A DNA stretch of 58,770 bases from a virus: IMG/VR virus record IMGVR_UViG_3300020283_000003, positions 1 through 58,770 of that record. One strand, given 5' to 3'. Position numbers and translations under genes: made by a program. Of this stretch, positions 2,897 through 58,649 are shown piece after piece. The notes below the pieces were generated by a model. It was not told the origin of the DNA and did no database searches. It saw nothing but the letters and a program-made list of their open reading frames with translations. How positions within the stretch are numbered: the stretch's first letter is position 1; each line of letters begins with the position of its first letter.

Positions 2897-3994
2897 TCAC
2901 TTTCCAGAATACTTACCAAGTGCTCTGATATAAGCTGACATTGTATCTGAAGCACCTTTATCCATATTAGGTTCTTCTGCCTGCTCACTAATTTGAGTAG
3001 TTGTACCGTTAGAGAAATAAGATTCTTTAATAGTAGTTAACTTCTCTGTAAATTGTTCTTCACTCTCAAACTCAACACCTTCTGCAAGAGAGGCGAGTTT
3101 ATCTTTTTGAGACTCAGCTAAACCACGGGATAGTTCACTTACGATCTCAGCCTTAGTAGACTCAGATAGTTTTGAGTGAAGTGTGACGTTAGCTTCAATC
3201 TGCTCGTTGAGTTTTGTTTCCATTTCATCTAACTTGACGCTCATAGCCTCAAGTACATCATATTTATCTTCAGGTATGGATACATAATGATCTTCAAATA
3301 GACCTTTCATTCCAGATAGGAATGATTCAGTCATTTCTGTTTTGAGTCCGTTTTCAACTGCAAGTTGATTAGACTTGAACCACTCATCGGCAACGTACTC
3401 AAGGTAGTTGTCGATTCTTTCTGTTAGTTCTGTTTTGAACTCAGTGACTTCTTCAGCAGCTGCTTCTGCATACTGCTTTTCGATAGACTCTGCAAGTTCG
3501 TTAACTTTTGCTTTAACAGCAGCTTCAAAAATTGTTGCTGCCTTTCCTTTGAATTCCTCGGAGAGTTCTTCACCATTAAACATTGCATTAATGTCGTCAG
3601 TGACGTCGATATTAATATCTCCAGTAGAGTCGATTGTTTCTTCCTCAACTACATCACCTTCAACTTCGGTCTCTTCAACCTTAGTCTTTGCTTTACCGCT
3701 TCCAGTGCTGTAAGTTTCAGCGCCACCTTTACCAGGTGCATAGTCTGGAGCTTTGTTCATTGCATCTGCCTTAGCACCTGGTTTACCAGGAGGCTTTGCT
3801 GCAACAGCAGATGGTGTCTTCAGCTTTGCTGAATCGTCATCTGGTTTGTAATTTTCGGGGGATGGACCGCCAAGATCTTCGTAAGATGCTTGACCAGGTA
3901 CATAATCGGGGGTCTTCTGCATTGGTTCTGCAGATTTTGCCCCTTTGGTTACTACGCTTTCTGCCATTTCTTTTAATTGGTTACCAACGGACAT
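2897..3994 (-). CDS. 22: prohead scaffolding core protein gp22
   Basis: A protein of 365 residues lying between the protease gene 21 and the capsid gene 23, as in T4. The first 120 residues are Pro/Gly/Lys-rich with repeated segments (KTPDYVPGQASYEDLG... and KAPDYAPGKGGAETY...), and a Glu/Asp-rich segment follows. Residues about 140-330 are strongly helical and charged, as expected for a core protein that is assembled inside the prohead and degraded by gp21. It is longer than T4 gp22 (about 270 residues), mainly through the N-terminal repeats. A TATAAATA late promoter lies 53 bp upstream. Confidence 0.9.
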   Translation of the reverse strand: MSVGNQLKEMAESVVTKGAKSAEPMQKTPDYVPGQASYEDLGGPSPENYKPDDDSAKLKTPSAVAAKPPGKPGAKADAMNKAPDYAPGKGGAETYSTGSGKAKTKVEETEVEGDVVEEETIDSTGDINIDVTDDINAMFNGEELSEEFKGKAATIFEAAVKAKVNELAESIEKQYAEAAAEEVTEFKTELTERIDNYLEYVADEWFKSNQLAVENGLKTEMTESFLSGMKGLFEDHYVSIPEDKYDVLEAMSVKLDEMETKLNEQIEANVTLHSKLSESTKAEIVSELSRGLAESQKDKLASLAEGVEFESEEQFTEKLTTIKESYFSNGTTTQISEQAEEPNMDKGASDTMSAYIRALGKYSGK

Positions 3995-17748: not shown

Positions 17749-20700
17749 TTATGTATATGCAATCGCTCTGATTGATCTGAACTTAGGAGGATCAGCAGCA
17801 TTTGTACCAGACATCATAATCTTGATTCTAAATCCTGTGAATTCAGTTAGGTCTTGAGCATTAAACTCATACTGGATGAATTCATCGGATAGAGGAGCAG
17901 ATGGTCTGATCTTTCTATCTGGGCGACCATTATTATTCAATTGAGTAATTACTTGATCACCTAATCCGTTACCATCAGTGTCTTTCAAGTTATCATAGCC
18001 AGGGAAGAGACGCCATGGAGCAGCACCACCTTCAGCACTTGTTTGAAGTTGATATGCAACACGGAAATCAGATGTTTCACTTCTGTATGCTTCAATAATA
18101 ACTTTTAAAGCAACTGATTCATTTTCAAGAGAAACATTCTTACTTACGTAAGCAGATGCGTGTGGATCTTCTCCACTAATGTTAACACGACCGTCTAGTG
18201 CGTAATTGCTGACTGGATCATTAATTCTAAAGAATTCAAATTCAGTTGCACCAACAGTAGAGTCAATAGTTGGAGATACATTTTCATCTGTTGTTTGTAA
18301 TGTGATTGCAGTTGTGAAAGACTTATTCCTGAATAATTCAGTGTTGTATGCGTCTTCGTTAACTTTAGATGCAATCATTCTTACATCACTAAATTCATTA
18401 ACATTACCAAGATCAATATTCACATAACCCTTATCTACGTAAGAGACTTCATTTCCACTTGGACTTGTACCTGTGATCGTTCTAGCTTGTGCAGTAACAG
18501 AAGTCTTACCAGTAGGTTTAATAACTCTGTAGTTAGGTTTGATGCTAGAGTACAACAAGTTAGTTGTAGTATCGATTTCATCACCACCAGCAGCACCGCT
18601 ATCAGCGAAACTTAGGAGTGGAGCGTTAACCAATGATCCATCATCAGTTCTGTCTGTACCATTTTGATCTCTTTGAATTCTGATATAGAAGTTATCAATA
18701 TCAAACTCATAAGGGTCAATGTCATGAGTTGTGTTAATTCTTCTGAGAGATACACCTTGTAGTTCATACAAGTCAACTTCTTCTCCAAGAGTATGTGGGG
18801 TAGAAACTGTACCATCAACACCTCTAGTGCCGATAGTTAATGTTCCTGCACCAACACCAGTGTAAGAAATAAGTTCTTGGTCAACCAAAACATAACCTGG
18901 GTTTGTTGCAGTTACTGGCATTCCTTCAAATGTATCATATCCAGCAGTAGAAGCAACCGAAATTACCGTGCTAGTAGAAGTAACATCTGCAGATAGTTGT
19001 GTTGCATCAGCAAGATCCTTACATCCACTAATAGTAATCTTGTTAGATCCACTATACATTCCGTGGTTTGGAAGATAAACAATTATCATGTCACCTTCGT
19101 TAGAGGTAGGACCAGTTCTTGCGGACAATGTAATTGTCGTAGTTCCAAGTGCTATTCTTGTTCCAGAGTCATTGTAGTAAACAAGTTTTTCGCTAGTAAC
19201 AAAGGTGTTACCACGTACATCTTCTAAGAATAATCTATCAACACCACTAGTTGCTTCAATTGACAACTGTGCTTGAGAACCAGCACCACCAGCGTCTGCT
19301 GTTGTAATACCGATAATGTCACCTACAGCATAACCATGTCCTGCAGTTACAATAGTTGCACCAGCAGCAGTTACGTTTCCATTTTCAACAAAGATGTTTG
19401 CTTTTGCACCAACTCCATTACCAGTAACAGCGAATAGATCAACATTATTATATTGACCATCGATGTAATCAGTACCACCAATAGCAACTGTAGAAATACC
19501 TGCGTAAGAACCAAATGTTAGGTCGATAGGACCACCTGTACTTTCAATAGTACCAAACTTATAGGAACTACCAGAACTACCACCTTCAGCAGCAGTTGCT
19601 TCACCAATCTTCCTACCAGTAGTAAGAATACCTGCCATCACAGTTCCATTTGTGACTGTATCAATACCAACGGTTACAGATCTAGAAATGACTTGGAATG
19701 AATCAGGATCTAATCTTCTGATGTAGTTGTTACTTACATCAAGATCTGGGTTGTGCATATAAACAGTACCAGAGGTAGCTGTAAATTTCGCTCTCTTAAG
19801 TCTGAATGTTAAATCTTCTTCCTGAGTTGGAGTCCAAATAGAACCGTTCTGAGACTTGAATAGAGAACCAGCACCCCACTGTTTACTATGCTGAGAGTTC
19901 TGACCTAATCCTAATGCCTTAAAGTTGAGTGTCTTAGAACCCATCCTTGCAAGGAAGACTTCATAAGAATCAGACTCAGACAAGAGAACGACACAGAATT
20001 CAGTGTTTGGAGCACAGAATACAGGAGACTTAAAGTTAAATGTAGTCTTATAAGTTTCATTACCTGCAGATGCACCAGTGTCAGGAACCAATGTAACTTG
20101 GTCTGGATCAAGTTTTACTTCAGAATATTCTAAAACATTTCTGGTTGGAATACCCAACTGCATTTGTCTGACTTCAAGGAATACTGGGAGTTTTTCATCC
20201 TTAGTATAGAACCAAACGTCAAGACTAGTAAGGAAGACACCACTAGCATCTGTTGTAAACGACTGTGCAAGAGGGTCTCTGTGGAAGTAAACCTTATACT
20301 TTGTCGTTCTCCAAGTTTCAATAACACCAGTAGACTTATAATCTGCTTGTCCTGAGGAGATCTTGGTAGATCCAGGAGTTGCTTTAGTATTGTTAATATC
20401 AGTGTTAAGAACAAATTGCTTAGTACCTGTCTTAAATCTGTTTGGAGGTGCAGGATTTGCAAGAGGATCTCTAATAAAGAAGCATGCTTGGATATCACCA
20501 AACTTATCAGAAACCAAACGAATCTGACTTACCTTTGCAGTAGCACCAGACTTTTGACCAGTCAGTAACATGTCATTAACAACATATCCACTGAATGAAC
20601 CCTGTGCTTCTTCTGCCATAGAAGCAACGTCAACGTTTATAATTGTCGAAGACTTAGAATATGTCGTAGGAATATTCTGTGCGGTATTGTATGGGTTTAT

Positions 20701-23700
20701 GCTATAAGTTCTATCTGGTTTGTTATACTTACCTCTCTTATGGTTAGGTGTACAAACTCTGAACTTAATTTTTGCCTTTCCTTTCTTACCAATTACAGTT
20801 TCACCAATTTTGAATGCACCTGTAACATCCTTGATTTCAAGGAGTTTTGGTACGATATCCAAATTATTACTTCCATCAAAGAAGTGGTAATACCTAGTTT
20901 TTGGTTTACAAGACAGCGCATCAACAAGTACGTTTCTAGAACGCATATACTCTTCCGCTTGCGACTTGATCTTCTCGACCTTATCTGCGGGTGTTGGCGT
21001 TGGTACGTCAACTTTCTTGTAAGTAGTGGTGTAAGTAGCGACGCGACGCATACAACGCCAGCCCCAGCCCCACCAGCCCCAATAGCCGTAGCGCCAACGA
21101 TATCCATACCAACCCCATCTCCACCAATATCCATATCTCCAACCACGACGATACCAGTAGTACCCCCAATGCCAATGGCACCATCTCCATCTATAACGAC
21201 CCCAATACCAACGCCAGCGACCCCACCAGCCCCACCAGTAACCAGTACGAACCCACTTATAACGTTTGGTAACAACCTTTACTGTTTTTTGCTTACCTTT
21301 AATCTTTACAGTTTGCTGAGTCTGAATCTTTCTAGACCAACTATCAATATCAGGTTTTAGTGTAATTGCAACTGCCCATGTAATAACGTTAAATGGGTTA
21401 ATATTACTTACACCAGTTGCTGCAAGTTGTTTTACCCACTCTTTCTCTTCATACTTAAGCATCAAGAGATCACCACGTTTAACGACGTTCTCATCTAAAA
21501 GGTCATAATCAATTGTACTATCGTAAGTAGAAGATGTTGTTTCGTCTTTAGTTACAATTAATGTTTTTAAAGATGCATTTGATGGTAATGGTGTAATTGT
21601 ACCGCTACCTTCATCACTCTGTTCACACTTATTATCTGGGTGTCCATCATCAATTTGTTCACTATTTTGGAAATTATCAGCAAAGAAACCATTTTTGAAT
21701 CGTGCTTTACCACTTGCATCTCTGATGTCAACATTTTTTGTTTGCTCTTCTAACATAGAAAGAGTAACTGCACTTTCAAGAGCACTGATCTTTCTATCTA
21801 ATTTACCAATATCAGCAAAGGTATATCTTCTTGGGTTTTCTAAATCAATATCAATAGAATCAGTTTCATCTGTATATGCAGGTAAAGTGATAGTACCCAA
21901 TAACATATGGTCAGCATCTAAATCATCAGGTTCACCCTCACCAGGCACACCTTGAACAATAGATAGATCACCATTTTTATTCAAGAAAAGTTTATCAGTT
22001 CTACTTAAGTAATATTCAAAACTTACAACAGATCCTTCCCCAACTGCTAAAGGTAGAGCTGGTTTATTATCAGCACCAAAGTCTCTAGATGCAAAACTAA
22101 ATGGAGGTGCAGTCGCAGTTGCTGGATCATATACAGAAACAGCAGGTCTAAAGTCTAAGACGTTTGTACCACCAGTAGTAGAACCATTTACTTCAGACTC
22201 CATATCTGGTATTAAACCTCTAAACACAGACTGTGGGTAACTATCTACAGTTACAACATCGCCATCATCTCCAGAAGGAACAGAGTAATAATCAAATACA
22301 ATTTTTAATTGTTTAGTTGGAGGTTGACCACTAGTAGCAGTTCTCTTAATAGAAGCATAGTTAGAGAACGCATGTTCCTGACCATTATTCAATTCATATC
22401 TGTAAGTAATATCCTTATAATTTCCATTAACAATACTATCAATACTTGCAACAATATCACTCTCATCAAAAGAAATATCTTCTCCAACAATAAACCTAGC
22501 ATCAGTTAGATATACAAAATCTACTTGAGCAGCACCAGGTTTTGCTACAAGTCTTGCAATTGCTTTACTACTAGCACCGATAATACTTTCACCAATAATC
22601 GCACTAGTCTGTACATTTTCTACAGAAGTTAGATTTAGTTTATCAAATGTAGGTGCATTACTATCAAAAGACTCATGAACAGCAATAATTTCAATAACCT
22701 CTGGATAGTTCAAACAAATTTTCTTGTCCTGAACTCTAGTTCCAAAAAATGTACTATAGGACAAACCATCATTTAAACTGTTATTTGCTGTAGATCCAGA
22801 CTGTTTGTTTGCAGATCGGGTAATATTTACGACATGTGAACGATTAACAACCTTATTTTTTGCCTTGAATTGAGGTTTCTTCATTACAACGTTGGCAACA
22901 ACGTTAGTCTGAGATGGTCTTAAACCTTTAAGTGTGATTGTATTTGAACCACTATTATATTCAAATTTGTTTGCTGTGATTGTTGCAATAACACCATCAG
23001 AATAAACAACACTATATCTGTCCTCATCAAATGCTTCAAATATAGCACCTTGAACACCACTGGTATTGGTGATTGTCATTTCACCAGAACCATTAGTTGC
23101 TAATGCAGTAAGTTGGGTATGGTACTCAAGACTTGAATTTTTTAGATCTACTGTTGCAACATCACTTTGTGGAAGAGCAACATACATCTCATCCTGTTGA
23201 ATGTTTTGTACAATAGGTGTAAAAGCAATAATTGTTGATGTAATATCCGCTGCAGGAAGAGCACCAGTAGTAATTCCAATAACATCTGTAGTCGCTTCTA
23301 TAGTAACTTCCTTACCAGTTTTTGCAATATCTTTTACTCTATACAATGTGGTAGTTGTAAAACCAACTTGTTGAACAGCAAGTAAAGAATCTGTCCTAAT
23401 ACCAGTAAGAGATTTACTATTAAGTGATACTTTACCAGTAGTGGTAATATTAAACTGGTCTGTTTCTTTAAATCCAGGAACAGGTTGACCAACTAAAAGT
23501 ACATCACCATAAAAATCTGCCTGTAGACCTAGTGTAGAAGCTTGCTGATAAACAGATTTTACATCAGTACTATCAAAGACTCTTACATCTAATGTTTTTC
23601 TAGCATTCTCTTTAACACCATTAATATAAATTTGTTCACCTTGGATGAAGGTTCCAGATGTATCCCTTACAAAAATCTTAGCACTTCCAGTACCAGCTGC

Positions 23701-25185
23701 GGTTACATATCCAGATGCACCACTAGATTGACCTGTGATATATGCACCTGCAGGAAGTTGAGCAGCACTGAGAGGGTTGGCAAGATGTAACTTCTGATAT
23801 AATGTTACGTCATAAACAAATAAAGTAAATGGAGTACTAGGAGATAAGTATTCTCCAGAACTTAAATTAAAAGAATAACACCTAGCATCACCAATTCTTT
23901 CACCTGCAAGAGTTGTTCCATTAGCACCTAATCTTTGACTGTATAATTGAATTTCTCTCTTAATTGCAGGATGTCCATAAACATTATTTACTTGAATTTG
24001 ACTACCTAGATTATATGGAACAAAAGCTTGTTCAACTTTACGAGTTGTTCTTGGTTTTGGAATATCTAAAATTGTTGCAACAGGTTTATCGATATCATAA
24101 CCTTTTACATATGCTTTACCAGATCCAATAGAAACACAAGCTAAATCATCAGAAGGAACATTACCTTCATCAGTTACTTGGTTATCATAGTAAAGACCAT
24201 TATTACCTCTTCTATTATTCAAACACTCATGGAAAGTGATGTCAAAAGGTTCAACAAAGAAGTTACCAGTTTTCTCAAAATCTCTTTCAGCAATATAATC
24301 TTTAATAACAGAATATTGTGGTTTATTAGGAACTGTTAAAAGTACACCTTCTTCTACTCTTAAGAGTTCAATAAAACTTGAGTCATTAAGATCAGTAAGA
24401 CTCTTTTTAACTAAGGTAGTTTGTATTTTAAATCTATCAGCACCAGGAGCAGCAAAGTTAGTGAAACCCTTTGCATTATCATATAAAGTATTATCTTGCT
24501 TTGCGTTTACAATTTCTTCACTAATTTGAAGACCGACTCTGTATGAAGGAGCATCGTTTGCTTCGTCTAAAACTACTGTTTGCTTTTTAACGTCAACGAA
24601 GTAACCTCTGAAGAAGAAAGTACCTGCATCTACGTGAGCAGCAGAACCTATTTGTGCTGCACTTGTTGCAATAGTAACTGCAAAAGTGTTTCCACTAGAA
24701 ATAGTTGTATTTCCATATACGACGTTTTCTTCAGTAATTAAAGTCTCTCCATCTTGGAAAGCACCTACATCATTACTAGCTGTACCAGAAGTATATTTTA
24801 TGAAAAGAGTAATATTACCACTTTCTGTTTGCGAAGATAGAAGAACATTTACGATCTTTGCTTCAAGACCTGTTTGTTGTCCTCTAATCTCTTTTCCTAC
24901 AAAGGATGAAATATAATCACTAACATTTAAACCAAGGAAAGTTGATTCAATCTGAATTGATTGATAATCAAAATCATAGCTAACTCCACCAGGTATTACA
25001 ACAGATCCATCTTTGAAAGTATGTCTAGCAAATTTTTCAATCTGATTCTGAAGAATAGATTGAGACGTAGTTAATTCTCTAGCCTGTACTGGAAAACCAG
25101 GCTTAAACAATACCCTATAGTAATTGTTTTCTGCGTCAAAATCGTCATAATATGGATTGATATTTAAATTGGTTCTTTGTGGCAT
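17749..25185 (-). CDS. very large baseplate/tail structural protein with DUF4815-type N-terminus
   Basis: A protein of 2478 residues. The N-terminus (RTNLNINPYYDDFDAENNYY, RVLFKPGFPVQARELTTSQS, ILQNQIEKFARHTFKDGSVV) is characteristic of the DUF4815 family of large structural proteins in marine T4-like phages. The first about 1250 residues are beta-rich. At about residues 1308-1382 lies a stretch made almost only of Trp, Tyr, Arg and Gly, framed by basic beta strands (VKIKGKQKTVKVVTKRYKWV before, VATYTTTYKKVDVP after). Downstream come a tail domain (FFDGSNNLDIVPKLLEI; HRDPLAQSFTTDASGVFLTS near 1665), Gly-rich GHGYAVGDIIGI units and a C-terminal discoidin-like AYQLQTSAEGG...FRSIRAIAY region. 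It occupies the T4 9-12 position after gp8 and may be a peripheral baseplate or receptor-contacting protein (inference). Confidence 0.92.
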   Translation of the reverse strand: MPQRTNLNINPYYDDFDAENNYYRVLFKPGFPVQARELTTSQSILQNQIEKFARHTFKDGSVVIPGGVSYDFDYQSIQIESTFLGLNVSDYISSFVGKEIRGQQTGLEAKIVNVLLSSQTESGNITLFIKYTSGTASNDVGAFQDGETLITEENVVYGNTTISSGNTFAVTIATSAAQIGSAAHVDAGTFFFRGYFVDVKKQTVVLDEANDAPSYRVGLQISEEIVNAKQDNTLYDNAKGFTNFAAPGADRFKIQTTLVKKSLTDLNDSSFIELLRVEEGVLLTVPNKPQYSVIKDYIAERDFEKTGNFFVEPFDITFHECLNNRRGNNGLYYDNQVTDEGNVPSDDLACVSIGSGKAYVKGYDIDKPVATILDIPKPRTTRKVEQAFVPYNLGSQIQVNNVYGHPAIKREIQLYSQRLGANGTTLAGERIGDARCYSFNLSSGEYLSPSTPFTLFVYDVTLYQKLHLANPLSAAQLPAGAYITGQSSGASGYVTAAGTGSAKIFVRDTSGTFIQGEQIYINGVKENARKTLDVRVFDSTDVKSVYQQASTLGLQADFYGDVLLVGQPVPGFKETDQFNITTTGKVSLNSKSLTGIRTDSLLAVQQVGFTTTTLYRVKDIAKTGKEVTIEATTDVIGITTGALPAADITSTIIAFTPIVQNIQQDEMYVALPQSDVATVDLKNSSLEYHTQLTALATNGSGEMTITNTSGVQGAIFEAFDEDRYSVVYSDGVIATITANKFEYNSGSNTITLKGLRPSQTNVVANVVMKKPQFKAKNKVVNRSHVVNITRSANKQSGSTANNSLNDGLSYSTFFGTRVQDKKICLNYPEVIEIIAVHESFDSNAPTFDKLNLTSVENVQTSAIIGESIIGASSKAIARLVAKPGAAQVDFVYLTDARFIVGEDISFDESDIVASIDSIVNGNYKDITYRYELNNGQEHAFSNYASIKRTATSGQPPTKQLKIVFDYYSVPSGDDGDVVTVDSYPQSVFRGLIPDMESEVNGSTTGGTNVLDFRPAVSVYDPATATAPPFSFASRDFGADNKPALPLAVGEGSVVSFEYYLSRTDKLFLNKNGDLSIVQGVPGEGEPDDLDADHMLLGTITLPAYTDETDSIDIDLENPRRYTFADIGKLDRKISALESAVTLSMLEEQTKNVDIRDASGKARFKNGFFADNFQNSEQIDDGHPDNKCEQSDEGSGTITPLPSNASLKTLIVTKDETTSSTYDSTIDYDLLDENVVKRGDLLMLKYEEKEWVKQLAATGVSNINPFNVITWAVAITLKPDIDSWSRKIQTQQTVKIKGKQKTVKVVTKRYKWVRTGYWWGWWGRWRWYWGRYRWRWCHWHWGYYWYRRGWRYGYWWRWGWYGYRWRYGYWGWWGWGWRCMRRVATYTTTYKKVDVPTPTPADKVEKIKSQAEEYMRSRNVLVDALSCKPKTRYYHFFDGSNNLDIVPKLLEIKDVTGAFKIGETVIGKKGKAKIKFRVCTPNHKRGKYNKPDRTYSINPYNTAQNIPTTYSKSSTIINVDVASMAEEAQGSFSGYVVNDMLLTGQKSGATAKVSQIRLVSDKFGDIQACFFIRDPLANPAPPNRFKTGTKQFVLNTDINNTKATPGSTKISSGQADYKSTGVIETWRTTKYKVYFHRDPLAQSFTTDASGVFLTSLDVWFYTKDEKLPVFLEVRQMQLGIPTRNVLEYSEVKLDPDQVTLVPDTGASAGNETYKTTFNFKSPVFCAPNTEFCVVLLSESDSYEVFLARMGSKTLNFKALGLGQNSQHSKQWGAGSLFKSQNGSIWTPTQEEDLTFRLKRAKFTATSGTVYMHNPDLDVSNNYIRRLDPDSFQVISRSVTVGIDTVTNGTVMAGILTTGRKIGEATAAEGGSSGSSYKFGTIESTGGPIDLTFGSYAGISTVAIGGTDYIDGQYNNVDLFAVTGNGVGAKANIFVENGNVTAAGATIVTAGHGYAVGDIIGITTADAGGAGSQAQLSIEATSGVDRLFLEDVRGNTFVTSEKLVYYNDSGTRIALGTTTITLSARTGPTSNEGDMIIVYLPNHGMYSGSNKITISGCKDLADATQLSADVTSTSTVISVASTAGYDTFEGMPVTATNPGYVLVDQELISYTGVGAGTLTIGTRGVDGTVSTPHTLGEEVDLYELQGVSLRRINTTHDIDPYEFDIDNFYIRIQRDQNGTDRTDDGSLVNAPLLSFADSGAAGGDEIDTTTNLLYSSIKPNYRVIKPTGKTSVTAQARTITGTSPSGNEVSYVDKGYVNIDLGNVNEFSDVRMIASKVNEDAYNTELFRNKSFTTAITLQTTDENVSPTIDSTVGATEFEFFRINDPVSNYALDGRVNISGEDPHASAYVSKNVSLENESVALKVIIEAYRSETSDFRVAYQLQTSAEGGAAPWRLFPGYDNLKDTDGNGLGDQVITQLNNNGRPDRKIRPSAPLSDEFIQYEFNAQDLTEFTGFRIKIMMSGTNAADPPKFRSIRAIAYT

Positions 25186-26800: not shown

Positions 26801-29800
26801 TTATTTTGTGATTCCTCCAGTACCCCTTAAACCGAACCCTCTTCTCTGGAAAAGTGGGTAAGATCCTAGACCAACAGAGAACGTATTTCCATCGACATTA
26901 AGTGCGATTGGATTACTTCCTCTACTAAATCCAGTAACAATTCCCCAACTGTAGGTACCAACATTAGTGTATGCAAATCCAACAGTACTGAGTCCAGAAG
27001 TATTTGAATTTGAATCAATATTGCAGAAAGTGGTTATGATTCCGTTACCTGCATCATACTGAACTTGGTGAACTTTATAGATGTTGTTACAAGCAGTTGT
27101 ACCAATACCAATTACTTGGGAATTGTGAGTATCGATAGAAGTTACACCTGTACCAACATTAGTATCGTTAATAAAGATTCTCATTCCATCTCTAAGGGTA
27201 TCTGATGGGGAAGATGGAAGAGTTAAAGTAAACTTCAAACAGAGATCAGTACCGATTCCAGTAGAAGTTGTAATTCCAATAATATCACCATCATAACCAT
27301 TTACAGTTGGTGTTATTGTGATACTTTCAATCTCCACAACTGGATTTGGTACTAACGCAAATGCACTAGTTCCATATCCACTACCAGCATTGGTAATATT
27401 TGCACCAATGATTGAACCGCCAGAAATAATTGCAGTTGCTAGTGCAGTTGTTCCGAAACCAACAGTAATATCAGGTGGATTTGATATAGAAATTGTTACG
27501 ATTCCAGTATATCCAGAACCACCATTAAGAACAGTGATTGTGGAAATCGTACCAGCACTTGCACCTGTAGTTCCAACTCCAACGCTTAGAATACCTACAA
27601 CTGGATCTGTTCCTGGAGTAATGATGCCATCAAAATTAGTAGATGGACTAACATTTTCATAGTTAAACAAACTAGTATTATCAAGGAAGAGGTAATCTTG
27701 AGTTGAAGATGCAGAACCAATAATTCTTGCTGTTGGATAGATTTGTGGTTCTAGTGCTTCACGAGTCTTAGGAATAATACGTCCATCAACAGTTCTATCA
27801 ACTTTTTGTTTTCTCCAAACAACAGGTCTCTTGAAGTTACCATCAATACCCTGTCTAGAGTATAAGTTAGTTGCAAGAATATCGGATGCAACAATGTCAT
27901 TAACAACTCTTGGTTCTTGATCTGGAACAGTAGAAACACCAACTGGTTTAATTAAGATTAATTCATCACCAATTTTGATTGATTCAACTACGTTAACAGT
28001 ATTAACATCATCATTACTACCTCTATAGAAGTAAATTGTAACTTGGTCAGCCTCTGCTGGAGCACTTGTAAATTCAAATGCAGTACCACCTTCAAAGCTG
28101 TAATCTTTCTCTGGTATTTGAAGAACACCATTGATAAAGATGATAAGAAGTGATGGGAAACTAATAGGTGTTCCATCTTGTTTCTCAAAACTGACTAACT
28201 GCTCATTTTGGAATAGTGGGAATCTCTTTGTTACACCATCTTGTAGTGAGGTAATATCATCAATATAATCAAGTTGACCGAATTGCCATCCATAGAAAGT
28301 ATCGGAGAATGTATCAACAACTTGAAGTTCAAATGGTTCAGTTTCAGTTGTATAACCAACTGTCTTAGATCCAGCAAGGACTTTTGCAGCAGTTACCAAA
28401 CCAACAGGACTAACCTTATCATTAACTTGGAAACCATATCCTCTGTTTCCGATTGTAAAGTTCTTAACTCCACTTGACTCTGATGCAACACCACTAGTAC
28501 TAATACCACCAACATTTAGAGTTACAGATAATCCAATACCAGTCTGGGTTGTCTCACCAATACCTAATCTAAAGAGACCTCTAACTGGTAGATCATCATA
28601 AGATGGTCCAGGAGTTTCTAACCTTGGAGCAATAGTAAATCCAGTTCCAACATAATCTAGAGAAGGAACGAGACTTCCACCAAAACCAACTGTAGTAGTA
28701 ATTGTTAAACCAGTTCCAACATTATTTTCAGGAACTACTGTTACTGGAACACTATTTCCATAGAATCCACTACCAGGGAAGAACTGATTAACCTTACCAA
28801 CTTTACCACCAGAATGATAGAAGTGTTTAAATGTACAGATACCAACATCAGCAGTAAATTCAGTAGCAGAATATACTTCCTTAACTCTAAATGGACCTGG
28901 ATTTAATTTCTTCTCAGCAATACCAGAACGTAATTGGGTAACCATACCACCACTACCGTAGAAGTGCTGATAAGTTGAAATACCAACTCTTACTCTTATT
29001 GTATTTGCGTCATCTGCACTGATTACTTTATAAGGACCAGTATATTGTTGTGGTTTGGATGTACCACCACCAGTGTAAGTATGAGCAATTGGGGATCTTC
29101 CAACATTAATGGTATATTCCTTACTATTAGCAATAGCAAGTACTTCATAAGGTCCAGTATATCTTACAGGAGATACTCTACCAGAGTGATCGTAAGTATG
29201 GACGTAAGTAGAAACACCAACATTAACAGTGAATGTATTTCTGTCAATTCTTTCCTTAACTGTGTAAGGACCAGCGAATTTAACTTCTGCAGCAGTACCA
29301 CCAGAAACATATGTATGAGCAAGAGTTGATACTCCTACATTAGTTACAAATGTTGTTGAGTTAACAATAGTCGTCAATTCAAAGTCAGTTTGCTTATCTG
29401 GATAAGTCTTAGAACCATATGCACATGATACGGTCATACCCTGCAATCTAACCTTCTTAAATCGGACAAAATTATGGTTGGTTGCGGTAGTAACAGTCGC
29501 AATACCTGATTGATTATCATATTGGAAGTTACTGATATTAACAGCGGTTCCAGTATCTTGTGGGAATACATGTGTAGTACCACTACCAATTGGGCAAAGC
29601 ATATGGATATTTTCAAAGTTAATTAACTGCCCAGTTCCAAGTTGATTGAATCCATTGGTTGTTACTGTTGCCAAACCAGTCATATTATTATATTCAAAAT
29701 TAGCAATCTTAATAAATGCACCTTGAGGATTAGGGAACCTGTCACTTGTAACACCAGTTCTTACATTACCACCACTGACATATGTGTGTACTATAGTTGA

Positions 29801-51795: not shown

Positions 51796-51946
51796 AAACC
51801 TCCTCTACTTTAATGTCCTCAAAGGTGTACTTGGTATCAAGTAAATTATTATCGATAATTGTTTTAAGCATTGTAAGTGTATTATCCTTTTCCTCTTTTG
51901 AAAGACGTTCGTAAAATGTCTTTTCCTTAATAACAATATTATACAT
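51779..51946 (-). CDS. 55-residue protein, possible paralogue of the 56-residue gene
   Basis: The frame MYNIVIKEKTFYERLSKEEK...TFEDIKVEEVYDFDN (55 residues) starts on the stop of the AbrB-like gene (one-base overlap). Like the protein at 50656-50826 it has an amphipathic helix opened by LS(K/E)EE and an F/SxDIKVE end. Function unknown. Confidence 0.75.
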   Translation of the reverse strand: MYNIVIKEKTFYERLSKEEKDNTLTMLKTIIDNNLLDTKYTFEDIKVEEVYDFDN

Positions 51947-52125
51947 TAGAAATCCTCTTCTTCATCGATAAATTTACAAGATAGTTCAACTTCTGATTTC
52001 AATTCCCATTCTACCACATCTCCTTCTTCCCATGTGAGATCCTTAAGGATTTCTTCTGGAATTGTAACAAAGAGATCTCCTGTGAGATCATCTTGTTGAA
52101 TCACTGCTTTACGAATGTGCTTCAT
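51946..52125 (-). CDS. AbrB/SpoVT-like small DNA-binding protein
   Basis: The frame MKHIRKAVIQQDDLTGDLFV, then TIPEEILKDLTWEEGDVVEW (59 residues) has the swapped-hairpin AbrB/MazE pattern: a beta strand, (I/L)PxEIL, a helix, and W(x)EGDxVEWE. Family members bind DNA as dimers and act as regulators or antitoxins. No toxin partner is obvious beside it. It starts in a 4-bp overlap with the secreted-protein gene. Confidence 0.75.
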   Translation of the reverse strand: MKHIRKAVIQQDDLTGDLFVTIPEEILKDLTWEEGDVVEWELKSEVELSCKFIDEEEDF

Positions 52126-52519: not shown

Positions 52520-52590
52520 TTGAAGTATATTTAAAGGTCGAATTGTCACCTCTGTAGGTTAGGGGTACCTAACGGTTTTCAAACCATAAT

Positions 52591-57143: not shown

Positions 57144-57172
57144 ATTCTCAATAACGAGGTACTATTGAGAAT
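57144..57172 (-). other. perfect 10-bp inverted repeat across a stop codon
   Basis: The arms ATTCTCAATA (57144-57153) and TATTGAGAAT (57163-57172) enclose a 9-nt loop. The TAG stop codon of the gene at 57162-57368 lies at the edge of the stem. There is no T-run beside it, and the true terminator is 40 bp further on, so it may protect the 3' end of the message or be a protein-binding site. Confidence 0.55.
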
Positions 57173-57368
57173 AAAGAATATCGGCTGCCTGGTCCACATC
57201 GTCTTCCTCATGCTCCGAGACGGTAACCTCGACTGTCTCGTCTGATTCCAACATGAGAATTCTATGCCAATCCAGTACCCGCAGCACCTGCGCGTCTAGA
57301 TCCCCGTATGCATCTAGATCTAGATGCACTGAGACTTTACGTTTTTGACTGAGGTAAGGAGTTGACAT
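57162..57368 (-). CDS. 68-residue acidic protein next to the repeat array
   Basis: The frame MSTPYLSQKRKVSVHLDLDA...DDVDQAADILYSQ (68 residues). A beta strand (RKVSVHLDLDAYGDLDAQV) is followed by an acidic segment VEVTVSEHEEDDVDQAAD. No family recognised. It is transcribed away from the repeat array, and a TATAAT on the same strand (57402-57407) with one array motif at the expected transcription start suggests control by whatever binds the array. Confidence 0.7.
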   Translation of the reverse strand: MSTPYLSQKRKVSVHLDLDAYGDLDAQVLRVLDWHRILMLESDETVEVTVSEHEEDDVDQAADILYSQ

Positions 57369-57389
57369 AAGGAGTAGAGGTGTGCTAAG

Positions 57390-57715
57390 CTCGACTAGAT
57401 TATTATATCACTCATAGGGTTTGCGCGCAAGCTCGTCGAGATTGTGTACGTCTCGCGCAGGTATCTCGTCGAGATTAGTACGCATGTGCTCGTCCGCGTC
57501 AGGAAGCTCGACGAGATATTCATAAGACCAATCGTACATAGCTCGACTAGATTGTGTGTGTCATACATGTAGTATAGCATATTTATGAGAACTCGTCGAG
57601 ATTTGTTACAGTTTGTGAACATTCTAGACGAGATTATTATAATGCGCGAAAGCTAGTCGAGAATTATGATGTGTGTATCTCGACTAGATCATAATGCGCG
57701 GATCTCGACTAGATT
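57390..57715. repeat. array of ten near-palindromic 12-bp motifs, CTCG(A/T)C(G/T)AGATT
   Basis: This is most of the 519-bp gene-free stretch 57369-57887. Ten copies, all in one orientation by their AGAT tail, start at 57390, 57432, 57465, 57507, 57542, 57592, 57624, 57653, 57679 and 57704. Variants are CTCGACTAGAT, CTCGTCGAGATT, CTCGACGAGATA, CTAGACGAGATT and CTAGTCGAGAAT. Each is an imperfect palindrome around the central A/T. Spacing falls from 32-50 bp to 25-29 bp towards the plus-strand promoter. GCGCG words occur between copies. It fits an operator cluster or origin iterons; it is too irregular and short for CRISPR. Confidence 0.9.
57402..57407 (-). promoter_or_regulatory. -10 box TATAAT inside the array, towards the 68-residue gene
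   Basis: The minus strand reads TATAATAATCTAGTCGAG, a perfect -10 directly followed by array motif 1, which covers the expected start point. The same arrangement (TATAATAATCTCGTCTAG) occurs at motif 7 (57624-57641). The -35 is weak (TTGCGC at 17 bp). Confidence 0.45.
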
Positions 57716-57729
57716 TTGGGGCGGTGGGG

Positions 57730-57758
57730 TTGACAAACTCCGATTCTTATGCTATGCT
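57730..57758 (+). promoter_or_regulatory. consensus sigma-70 promoter, extended -10
   Basis: On the plus strand TTGACA (57730-57735), exactly 17 bp, then TATGCT (57753-57758) with a TGC extended -10 directly before it. It starts 15 bp after the last array motif and drives the GIY-YIG gene. It is the best host-type promoter on the plus strand. Confidence 0.85.
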
Positions 57759-57887: not shown

Positions 57888-58649
57888 ATGGCAATAAAAC
57901 AAGGTACAATCTACTGTATTACCAACAAAGTAAATAAGAAACAATACGTAGGACATACAACTCTACCAATTAACAAGATATGGAAGAATCACATAACAGA
58001 TACTACCCATAAGGACTTATACAAGGATATAAAACAACAAGGTACTGGTAGATTTAATATATCTGTATTGGAAGAAACAACAACTGATAGGTTAGAAGAA
58101 CGTAAGGACTATTATATTAGTAAACTGGGTAGTGAATATAATAACCGTGAGGTAGCAGAAAAGATAATAATAAAGAATAAGGAGAAGACCAAGGAATGGG
58201 TCAACAACATAAAGAATAGTATTAATAAGAAAGTAGCATCAGGAGAGAAATGGGGTTTTATGTGTGAAGAGCATAGAGGTGACGGTACACACATGAAACA
58301 GAAGATAGAGGGAACATGTGTCAAGACTGGAGATATAAAGATATGGAATAGTATAAGTGATGCAGCAGCAGATGTCGCAGGTGATAAGAAGAGAAATGGT
58401 AATATTGTACTGGCAGCCCGTAATGGATGGGAAGCATACGGGTACACATGGAAAAAGATAGGTAAGAACCTACACAAACGTAAAATATATGGTGTACACA
58501 AGTCTAATGGTAAGAAGACAATGGTATATGAATCTATATCTGCTGCCGAGCGTACTATTAATGGTAAACGTGGCGGTGGTATTCGTAAATCGTTATTATA
58601 TCCTGGTAAAAGGACATGGAAAGGTTATTATTGGTATTATGCCGATTGA
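57888..58649 (+). CDS. GIY-YIG homing endonuclease
   Basis: A protein of 253 residues, the only gene on the plus strand. The N-terminal nuclease domain has GTIYCITN (residues 6-13) and YVG (20-22), matching the GIY and YIG motifs, then KIWKNHI (W and H present, Lys in place of the usual Arg) and LEETTTDRLEERKDYYISK, with acidic residues near 65-75. The C-terminal half has two NUMOD-like DNA-binding repeats (ISDAAADVAG...NGWEAYGYTWKKI and ISAAERTINGKRGGGIRKSL...TWKGYYWYY). It is free-standing between two phage genes, without an intron in sight. Such enzymes cut related phage genomes lacking the gene and spread it. The AT- and AGATA-rich codon use differs from the neighbours, fitting horizontal arrival. 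Confidence 0.9.
   Translation: MAIKQGTIYCITNKVNKKQYVGHTTLPINKIWKNHITDTTHKDLYKDIKQQGTGRFNISVLEETTTDRLEERKDYYISKLGSEYNNREVAEKIIIKNKEKTKEWVNNIKNSINKKVASGEKWGFMCEEHRGDGTHMKQKIEGTCVKTGDIKIWNSISDAAADVAGDKKRNGNIVLAARNGWEAYGYTWKKIGKNLHKRKIYGVHKSNGKKTMVYESISAAERTINGKRGGGIRKSLLYPGKRTWKGYYWYYAD

Follow-up and report, generated by a model that had tools for sequence, protein, structure and literature searches.

What are ten copies of one short palindrome doing within approximately 325 bp of a cyanophage genome? The question is raised by the window, the whole stretch of 58,770 bases from a virus record analyzed here, which represents part of the genome of a T4-like cyanophage. Homologues of gp23, gp22, gp21, gp20, gp19, gp18, and gp17 (numbers by T4 usage) are encoded in its left part. 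The relatives that bear names infect Synechococcus or Prochlorococcus, and most of the records consulted belong to Kyanoviridae. Early-gene control in T4-like cyanophages is little known, and an operator array that recurs and comes with a candidate regulator would offer a switch open to direct testing. The sequences compared below make it fairly probable, in our view, that the array controls the transcription of small, presumably early, genes as a multi-site operator; a replication origin, a partition site, an RNA element, and a selfish repeat are less likely. The sequence-only reading that first drew attention to the locus was partly confirmed in its observations and partly supported in its interpretation. 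The option that is supported is the operator cluster, in that the motif is clustered, lies at the same place in relatives, and appears at stereotyped positions within promoters.

The ten-site array and the form of its sites

A scan for the 9-bp core CTMGWCKAG gave ten sites, first to last 57390–57712, all within the array and none elsewhere in the whole window (Table 1). The narrower pattern CTCGWCKAG had 14 strand-matches, every one inside the array, compared with a mean of 0.37 and a maximum of 5 in 100 shuffles, and the reversed pattern, used as a control, matched 0 times on the forward strand and once on the reverse strand. The positions given by the earlier reading for ten clustered motifs (57390–57715) were right. 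It had described them as sharing one orientation, a statement that rests solely on the flanking AGAT or AGAA because the core itself is palindromic. It had also placed them in a gene-free stretch, which does not hold: a conserved minus-strand open reading frame (ORF) of 43 amino acids, here called smORF1, lies there and contains three of the ten motifs. The promoter elements that it reported were recovered, namely, the consensus-like plus-strand promoter (P3) and, by eye, two minus-strand TATAAT boxes, one abutting motif 1 (57402–57407) and one beside motif 7 (57635–57640).

Table 1. Coordinates of the array, its sites, and the associated genes and promoters in the window
Feature	Position	Strand	Description	Basis
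Whole array	57388–57714	.	Ten palindromic sites, core CTMGWCKAG	Sequence scan
Site 1	57390–57398	.	CTCGACTAG; overlies predicted P2 start site	
Site 2	57432–57440	.	Read Leu-Asp-Glu in smORF1; immediately upstream of P2 −35	
Site 3	57465–57473	.	Read Leu-Asp-Glu in smORF1	
Site 4	57507–57515	.	Read Leu-Val-Glu in smORF1	
Site 5	57542–57550	.	2 nt ahead of smORF1 start codon	
Site 6	57592–57600	.	Occupies −35 position of P1	
Site 7	57624–57632	.		
Site 8	57653–57661	.		
Site 9	57679–57687	.		
Site 10	57704–57712	.	17 nt ahead of −35 of the divergent promoter P3	
smORF1	57408–57539	−	43 aa, MYDWSYEY...ELARKPYE; three sites overprinted in frame	Sequence, relatives
P1	57571–57576	−	Extended −10 (TGCTATACT) for smORF1	Sequence
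P2	57402–57430	−	TTGCGC (57425–57430), 17 nt, TATAAT (57402–57407); for 68-aa gene	
P3	57730–57758	+	Divergent; TTGACA (57730–57735), 17 nt, TATGCT (57753–57758)	Sequence
68-aa acidic protein gene	57162–57368	−	phrog_12516; "cluster 1"	Profile match, relatives
GIY-YIG homing-endonuclease-like gene	57888–58649	+	Downstream of P3	Cluster found near arrays (see text)
MazE/AbrB-like protein gene	51946–52125	−	59 aa; phrog_661; putative site-binding protein	Profile, model
ORF of 55 aa	51780–51947	−	Overlaps end of AbrB-like gene; small second gene here in many relatives	

The form of the site was examined in 79 array zones left after removal of redundancy. The palindromic core always has A or T at its center: the forms counted were CTCGACGAG (139), CTCGTCGAG (137), CTCGACTAG (48), CTAGTCGAG (45), CTCGTCTAG (19), and CTAGACGAG (17), all other one-mismatch forms of CTCGWCGAG occurred at most three times each, and a G/C center occurred 0 times. 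Only the third base (C to A) and the seventh (G to T) vary in these zones, the rest of the palindrome being strictly kept. The zones were chosen by motif pattern, meaning that rare forms are underestimated, with other forms inside them free to appear, and the counts ignore shared ancestry. The A and T centers are equally frequent, as predicted for a symmetric DNA dimer site. The spacing of the motifs in the same zones is non-random, with hinted peaks near 24, 32, and 42; helical phasing is not claimed because the best single period in a period scan was 8.8, not 10.5.

Recurrence of the arrays in cyanophages

A scan of IMG/VR with a pattern of two spaced motifs matched at least 120 stretches (loci L006–L125). 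Together with part of the window and two stretches from named phages, these made up 123 sequences, which contained 156 arrays of at least three sites (one array in 93 sequences, two in 18, three in 9, and none in 3). In IMG/VR stretches, the motifs are clustered, and up to ten sites were counted in 450 nt. When whole IMG/VR records were searched, all 25 gave matches, and among the matches listed, the positions were nearly all clustered. Whole-record searches of 15 named records found four clustered sites in P-SSM2, five clustered sites in S-T4 (seen twice, near both record ends), 13 sites forming three arrays in S-SRM01, and two sites approximately 100 bp apart in S-SKS1. The other 11 (Bellamy, S-SM2, S-SSM7, MED4-213, DSL-LC03, S-SCSM1, S-CAM7, S-CAM9, SynMITS9220M01, S-8S55, and AG-345-E02, the last searched with a longer pattern only) had 0–6 scattered sites. 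The motif is therefore spread neither over the window nor over the array-bearing named genomes, and among close relatives it was clustered in L006, L033, L077, and L080, with both flanking genes present in L080. In full-text literature searches, for which most subscription papers were outside the scope, the array was apparently described nowhere among the matches listed, and the main text of PMC3037559 contains neither "palindrom" nor "repressor" (0 times each).

The arrays also recur beside the same gene. The 68-aa acidic protein of the window matched the phrog_12516 profile (E = 1.3e−7), and 72 of the 74 members found in motif-selected loci had an array immediately upstream of the 68-aa-type gene, the exceptions being L025, with two exact sites there, and L038, with none. 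Searching by this gene without use of the motif gave 80 loci, of which 75 extended 400 nt upstream and 30 were left once redundancy was removed; at least three sites lay within 650 nt upstream in 20 of the 30 non-redundant loci and in 55 of the 75 before thinning. Other repeats were also noticed: S-CAM7 has a different repeat, ATACTGCG..., with a spacing of 32–33, upstream of its 68-aa-type gene (L155, 2540–2780), and S-SKS1 has a 22-bp tandem repeat of approximately five copies beside the control region (L153, 2397–2528).

The sequence-only reading had also offered an origin iteron set and a partition-like site, and GC skew lends no clear support to either. As a replication origin with iterons, the array would be suitably placed between divergent promoters; one theta origin is predicted for cyanophage Syn9 (available text of PMC2984593), and the skew extremes of S-T4 (171.8 and 4.3 kb) are near its array copies, although both the extremes and the copies lie close to where the record begins and ends. 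No whole-genome cumulative GC-skew minimum occurs at the array in P-SSM2 (minimum at 5.7 kb) or S-SRM01 (minimum at 0.8 kb), S-SRM01 has three arrays whereas most named relatives searched have none, and sites fall within promoter spacers and codons; we consider an origin very unlikely. In the window, a change in the sign of GC skew coincides with a change of gene strand; skew follows gene strand too, and the skew evidence is hence indirect. The positions of DnaA boxes gave no clear support for an origin. Regarding partition, a ParA/ParB-like annotation was present in none of the 20 window ORFs scanned with PHROGs, a subset of its ORFs.

Promoter positions and overprinting of smORF1

The available texts of PMC2984593 and PMC3037559 assign sigma-70 promoters to early and NATAAATA promoters to late cyanomyovirus genes, and mention sigma-70, late, Pho, and NtcA promoter classes; the host RNA polymerase, without modification, is believed to transcribe the early genes (available text of PMC2984593). 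P1, P2, and P3 of the window resemble the sigma-70 class and lie in a region of small genes, and TATAAATA-like boxes stand ahead of several of its structural genes. P2 overlaps the end of smORF1, and its start site is predicted to fall within motif 1. In many relatives, the smORF1 promoter consists of TTGCAN or TTGACA, a motif in the spacer, and a TATAAT-like box, as in TTGACA-ATCTCGACGAGATCTGG-TATAAT of P-SSM5. Counted over the non-redundant zones, the motif lay wholly within the −35/−10 spacer in 35 of 105 promoter-like sites, compared with approximately 8.8 expected if positions were uniform, and 33 of these 35 motifs began 0–2 nt past the −35 hexamer. Relatives have a further site approximately 20 nt past the predicted start and ahead of the smORF start codon, and a second promoter over the last smORF codons. 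In the window, site 6 stands in place of the −35 element of P1, and this −35 is poor. Additional arrays lie between same-direction genes, in places overlapping the final codons of the gene before them; some second and third arrays have no promoter visible by eye, a point against the operator reading. Array-less phages have a similar divergent promoter, also by eye.

These positions suggest how the operator might work. A dimeric DNA-binding protein would recognize a 13-bp palindrome around CTMGWCKAG, at sites lying in and around the putative sigma-70-type promoters of smORF1 and the 68-aa protein gene and beside the divergent P3. Bound sites would conceal the promoters from host RNA polymerase, and the small, presumably early, genes may be switched off or tuned later in infection, with the many copies providing cooperative, tight control. 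Repression as the mode of control is our inference, and so is the choice of binder. What is seen in the sequences is the palindrome, its clustering, its recurrence in cyanophages, its stereotyped promoter positions, and the apparent selection on the motif inside the smORF. If this reading is right, the array type could mark small, unannotated early genes. In S-SRM01 (L134, approximately 3640–3790) and S-T4 (L152, approximately 2800–2940), smORF1 is present yet unannotated.

Binding by a host transcription factor or an activator, with the phage borrowing a host regulator or soaking it up via decoys, would instead fit site 6 at the poor −35 of P1, a position at which activators can act, and the phage binder discussed below is a candidate only. 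The in-spacer promoters listed (25 of 35) are, however, near consensus at both −35 and −10, and a scan for three spaced motifs across 84,980 bacterial and archaeal species, each represented by a single genome, gave 15 stretches, none of which was titled Synechococcus or Prochlorococcus; L142 was the sole other cyanobacterium among them. In 12 of the 15, the spacings are divisible by three, a pattern seen in coding repeats; of the rest, L144 and L149 carry a gene of the phage 68-aa type. We consider a host factor or activator unlikely. L144 and L149 are contigs assigned to genomes of Flavobacteriales and Sphingobacteriales, but they have an array with cyanophage genes and are probably misbinned.

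The sites might also act in RNA, as binding or processing sites in leaders or between genes, and several copies do lie in predicted transcripts, a few nucleotides before start codons or between same-direction genes. Yet other copies occupy the −35/−10 spacer and would not be transcribed from that promoter; the equality of A and T centers (139 versus 137) and the symmetric exchange of C3A and G7T fit double-stranded DNA, with the caveat that the counts are pooled over transcription directions; and no Rfam family matched in the window and nine other sources. We regard action in RNA as extremely improbable.

In relatives, smORF1 lies between the array and the 68-aa-type gene and is conserved. Among 81 distinct sequences chosen by a C-terminal pattern (70 of the 81 listed), the median dN/dS was 0.19, based on 235 equal-length pairs that are not independent, with motif codons left out. 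The Leu-Asp-Glu tripeptides were encoded by CTC-GAC-GAG in 94 of 130 cases, compared with CTC for 72 of 227 Leu, GAC for 274 of 845 Asp, and GAG for 76 of 158 Glu residues elsewhere in smORF1. Therefore, the DNA motif itself appears to be under selection on top of the smORF1 protein, and the smORF is a clear case of mutual constraint between DNA sites and protein sequence. An origin of the motif as a coding artefact is argued against by this codon choice and by the copies in promoter spacers. In phage Sf-CH8, a smORF whose tail is similar occurs in the absence of any site, indicating that the protein is independent of the sites.

Short palindromic repeats could also spread alone or with neighboring homing endonucleases, with no regulatory role. 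A GIY-YIG cluster occurs near arrays in 38 of the 123 sequences, an HNH gene adjoins the third S-SRM01 array, copy number varies, and relatives differ in the motif type of whole arrays, all of which would suit such repeats. Fixed promoter positions, a strictly kept sequence, and selection at the codon level would, on the other hand, be unexpected of neutral repeats, and we consider this explanation very unlikely.

Candidate binding protein and motif switching

The sequence-only reading had found no identifiable binding protein in the window; a candidate DNA-binding protein is nevertheless encoded on its minus strand, in the form of the 59-aa MazE/AbrB-like protein listed in Table 1. It emerged when array-bearing genomes (S-T4, S-SRM01, and P-SSM2) were compared with array-less ones (S-CAM9, S-SM2, Bellamy, and S-SSM7) by BLAST at thresholds of 1e−4 and 1e−3. 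At these thresholds, four families were present in all three of the former and none of the four latter: three large proteins (536–784 aa) that do not look like regulators, and one 58-aa protein annotated in S-SRM01 as "DNA-binding domain-containing." The window protein is a member of this last family. With an E limit of 0.01, a profile of the 58-aa protein matched in 8 of the 15 named records; S-SRM01, P-SSM2, S-T4, S-SKS1, and S-CAM7 gave strong matches (E of 1e−15 or better) and S-CAM9, S-8S55, and S-SM2 weak ones. The five strong matches include all three array phages and S-SKS1; the protein of S-CAM7, which has two scattered sites, is divergent. The 68-aa-type protein was also considered as the binder and rejected: its family is also present in array-less Bellamy, S-SM2, and others, it has no match in array-bearing P-SSM2, and its model (pLDDT 76) gave no Foldseek match.

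The match of the candidate to PF04014 (MazE_antitoxin) scored 22.1 bits, below the curated cutoff of 24.7, and 20 of 41 family members matched at E up to 0.1 (best, 9.7e−5). A structural model (mean pLDDT 73.9, pTM 0.43) has strands at residues 8–11 and 18–21, a helix at 24–29, and strands at 37–42 and 48–53, in addition to a short strand at 2–4; the predicted order is thus the beta-beta-alpha-beta-beta order of the swapped-hairpin fold. In Foldseek, the best E was 0.46 and none was significant, with C56, SpoVT, C68, MazE, and AbrB standing out among the 18 best matches; VIA gave Z of 2.0–2.4 to MazE, C68, and AbrB, a level that unrelated chains tie. A profile search of PDB sequences found no convincing match, its one hit at E = 0.64 being unrelated. 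With SpoVT/AbrB and MazE swapped-hairpin domains, the candidate shares the strand-strand-helix-strand-strand order of its model and, at a weak level, the match to MazE_antitoxin; it differs in being very acidic (by inspection) and below the Pfam cutoff. AbrB-type factors have been noted in a few jumbo phages (available text of PMC7824862).

The protein was present in 17 of 23 long array records, and five of the six others end 0.2–6 kb downstream of the array, with the direction set by the smORF, by the 68-aa-type gene, or by an array of identical sequence. The sixth, G017, carries arrays but lacks an AbrB-like gene in the 3.6 and 7.4 kb that flank them. Among phages picked by the AbrB-like protein alone, with 18–34 kb examined in each, AG-345-F15 and P-SSM5 (the same species as P-SSM2) each had a four-site array, whereas Sf-CH8, with a strong homologue, had no array in the 18 kb examined, and ACG-2014f, with a weak match, had none in the stretch examined. 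In loci found by neither motif nor protein and followed 7.5 kb downstream, the protein was present in all six that have an array and in all three that lack one. When the gene following the AbrB-like gene served as anchor, the protein was present in 27 of 29 loci (29 of 80 examined); in ten of these with at least 7 kb upstream, it was present in all ten, with an array in five and none in five. A table of 14/14 versus 4/5 (p = 0.26) included protein-fetched loci and is hence not independent. In other words, the AbrB-like protein is nearly always present where arrays occur and is equally present where they are absent. The phage's own MazE/AbrB-like protein is the best candidate for the binder, but we hold it to be a doubtful one because its presence does not track the arrays in neighboring loci.

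Two further elements were noticed around this gene. An element like CTATATAAAA lies approximately 30 nt ahead of it in many loci and is possibly another promoter class. At 52522–52580, upstream of genes including the AbrB-like gene, an intergenic stretch of 43–53 bp is 89–93% identical in Bellamy and S-SM2, with no Rfam match.

In loci that have the AbrB-like protein and lack CTCGWCKAG arrays, sites of the TACGAGA type often occupy the corresponding positions, that in the P1 spacer among them. Of 90 distinct AbrB-like proteins with at least 3.5 kb upstream, 56 were accompanied by at least four CTCGWCKAG in 450 nt, six by at least six ACGAGA and at most two CTCGWCKAG, and nine by neither array type (three of these nine have three sites), the remaining 19 being short or undecided; many of the loci were chosen by motif, and these proportions mean little. 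Nearly identical AbrB-like proteins accompany both CTCGWCKAG and ACGAGA-type arrays (by eye). Because close protein relatives occur in both groups, the case for the AbrB-like protein as specificity determinant is weakened, unless it reads mainly the CGAGA half; protein type does not separate with array type by eye, local co-occurrence is non-discriminating, and we rejected that role. A wider, rather unlikely proposal would join these observations into an undescribed T4-like cyanophage regulon, in which a phage AbrB/MazE-type protein would shut off small host-takeover genes via palindromic operator arrays, overprinting would dictate Leu-Asp-Glu repeats, and whole arrays would switch in concert from CTCGWCKAG to TACGAGA between close relatives.

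The putative operator array can be compared with the stoperators and operators of Cluster A mycobacteriophages, which are likewise many copies of one short regulatory site, bound in that system by a phage repressor. As described in the available parts of the sources, stoperators are asymmetric, distributed genome-wide, and bound by the repressor of a temperate phage, whereas the cyanophage sites are palindromic and packed in one to three arrays, with a few scattered copies besides.

Finally, two giant minus-strand ORFs were observed in the window, at 26801–48163 (7120 codons) and 17749–25185 (2478 codons); the larger lies at the place of the baseplate wedge initiator gp7 in relatives.
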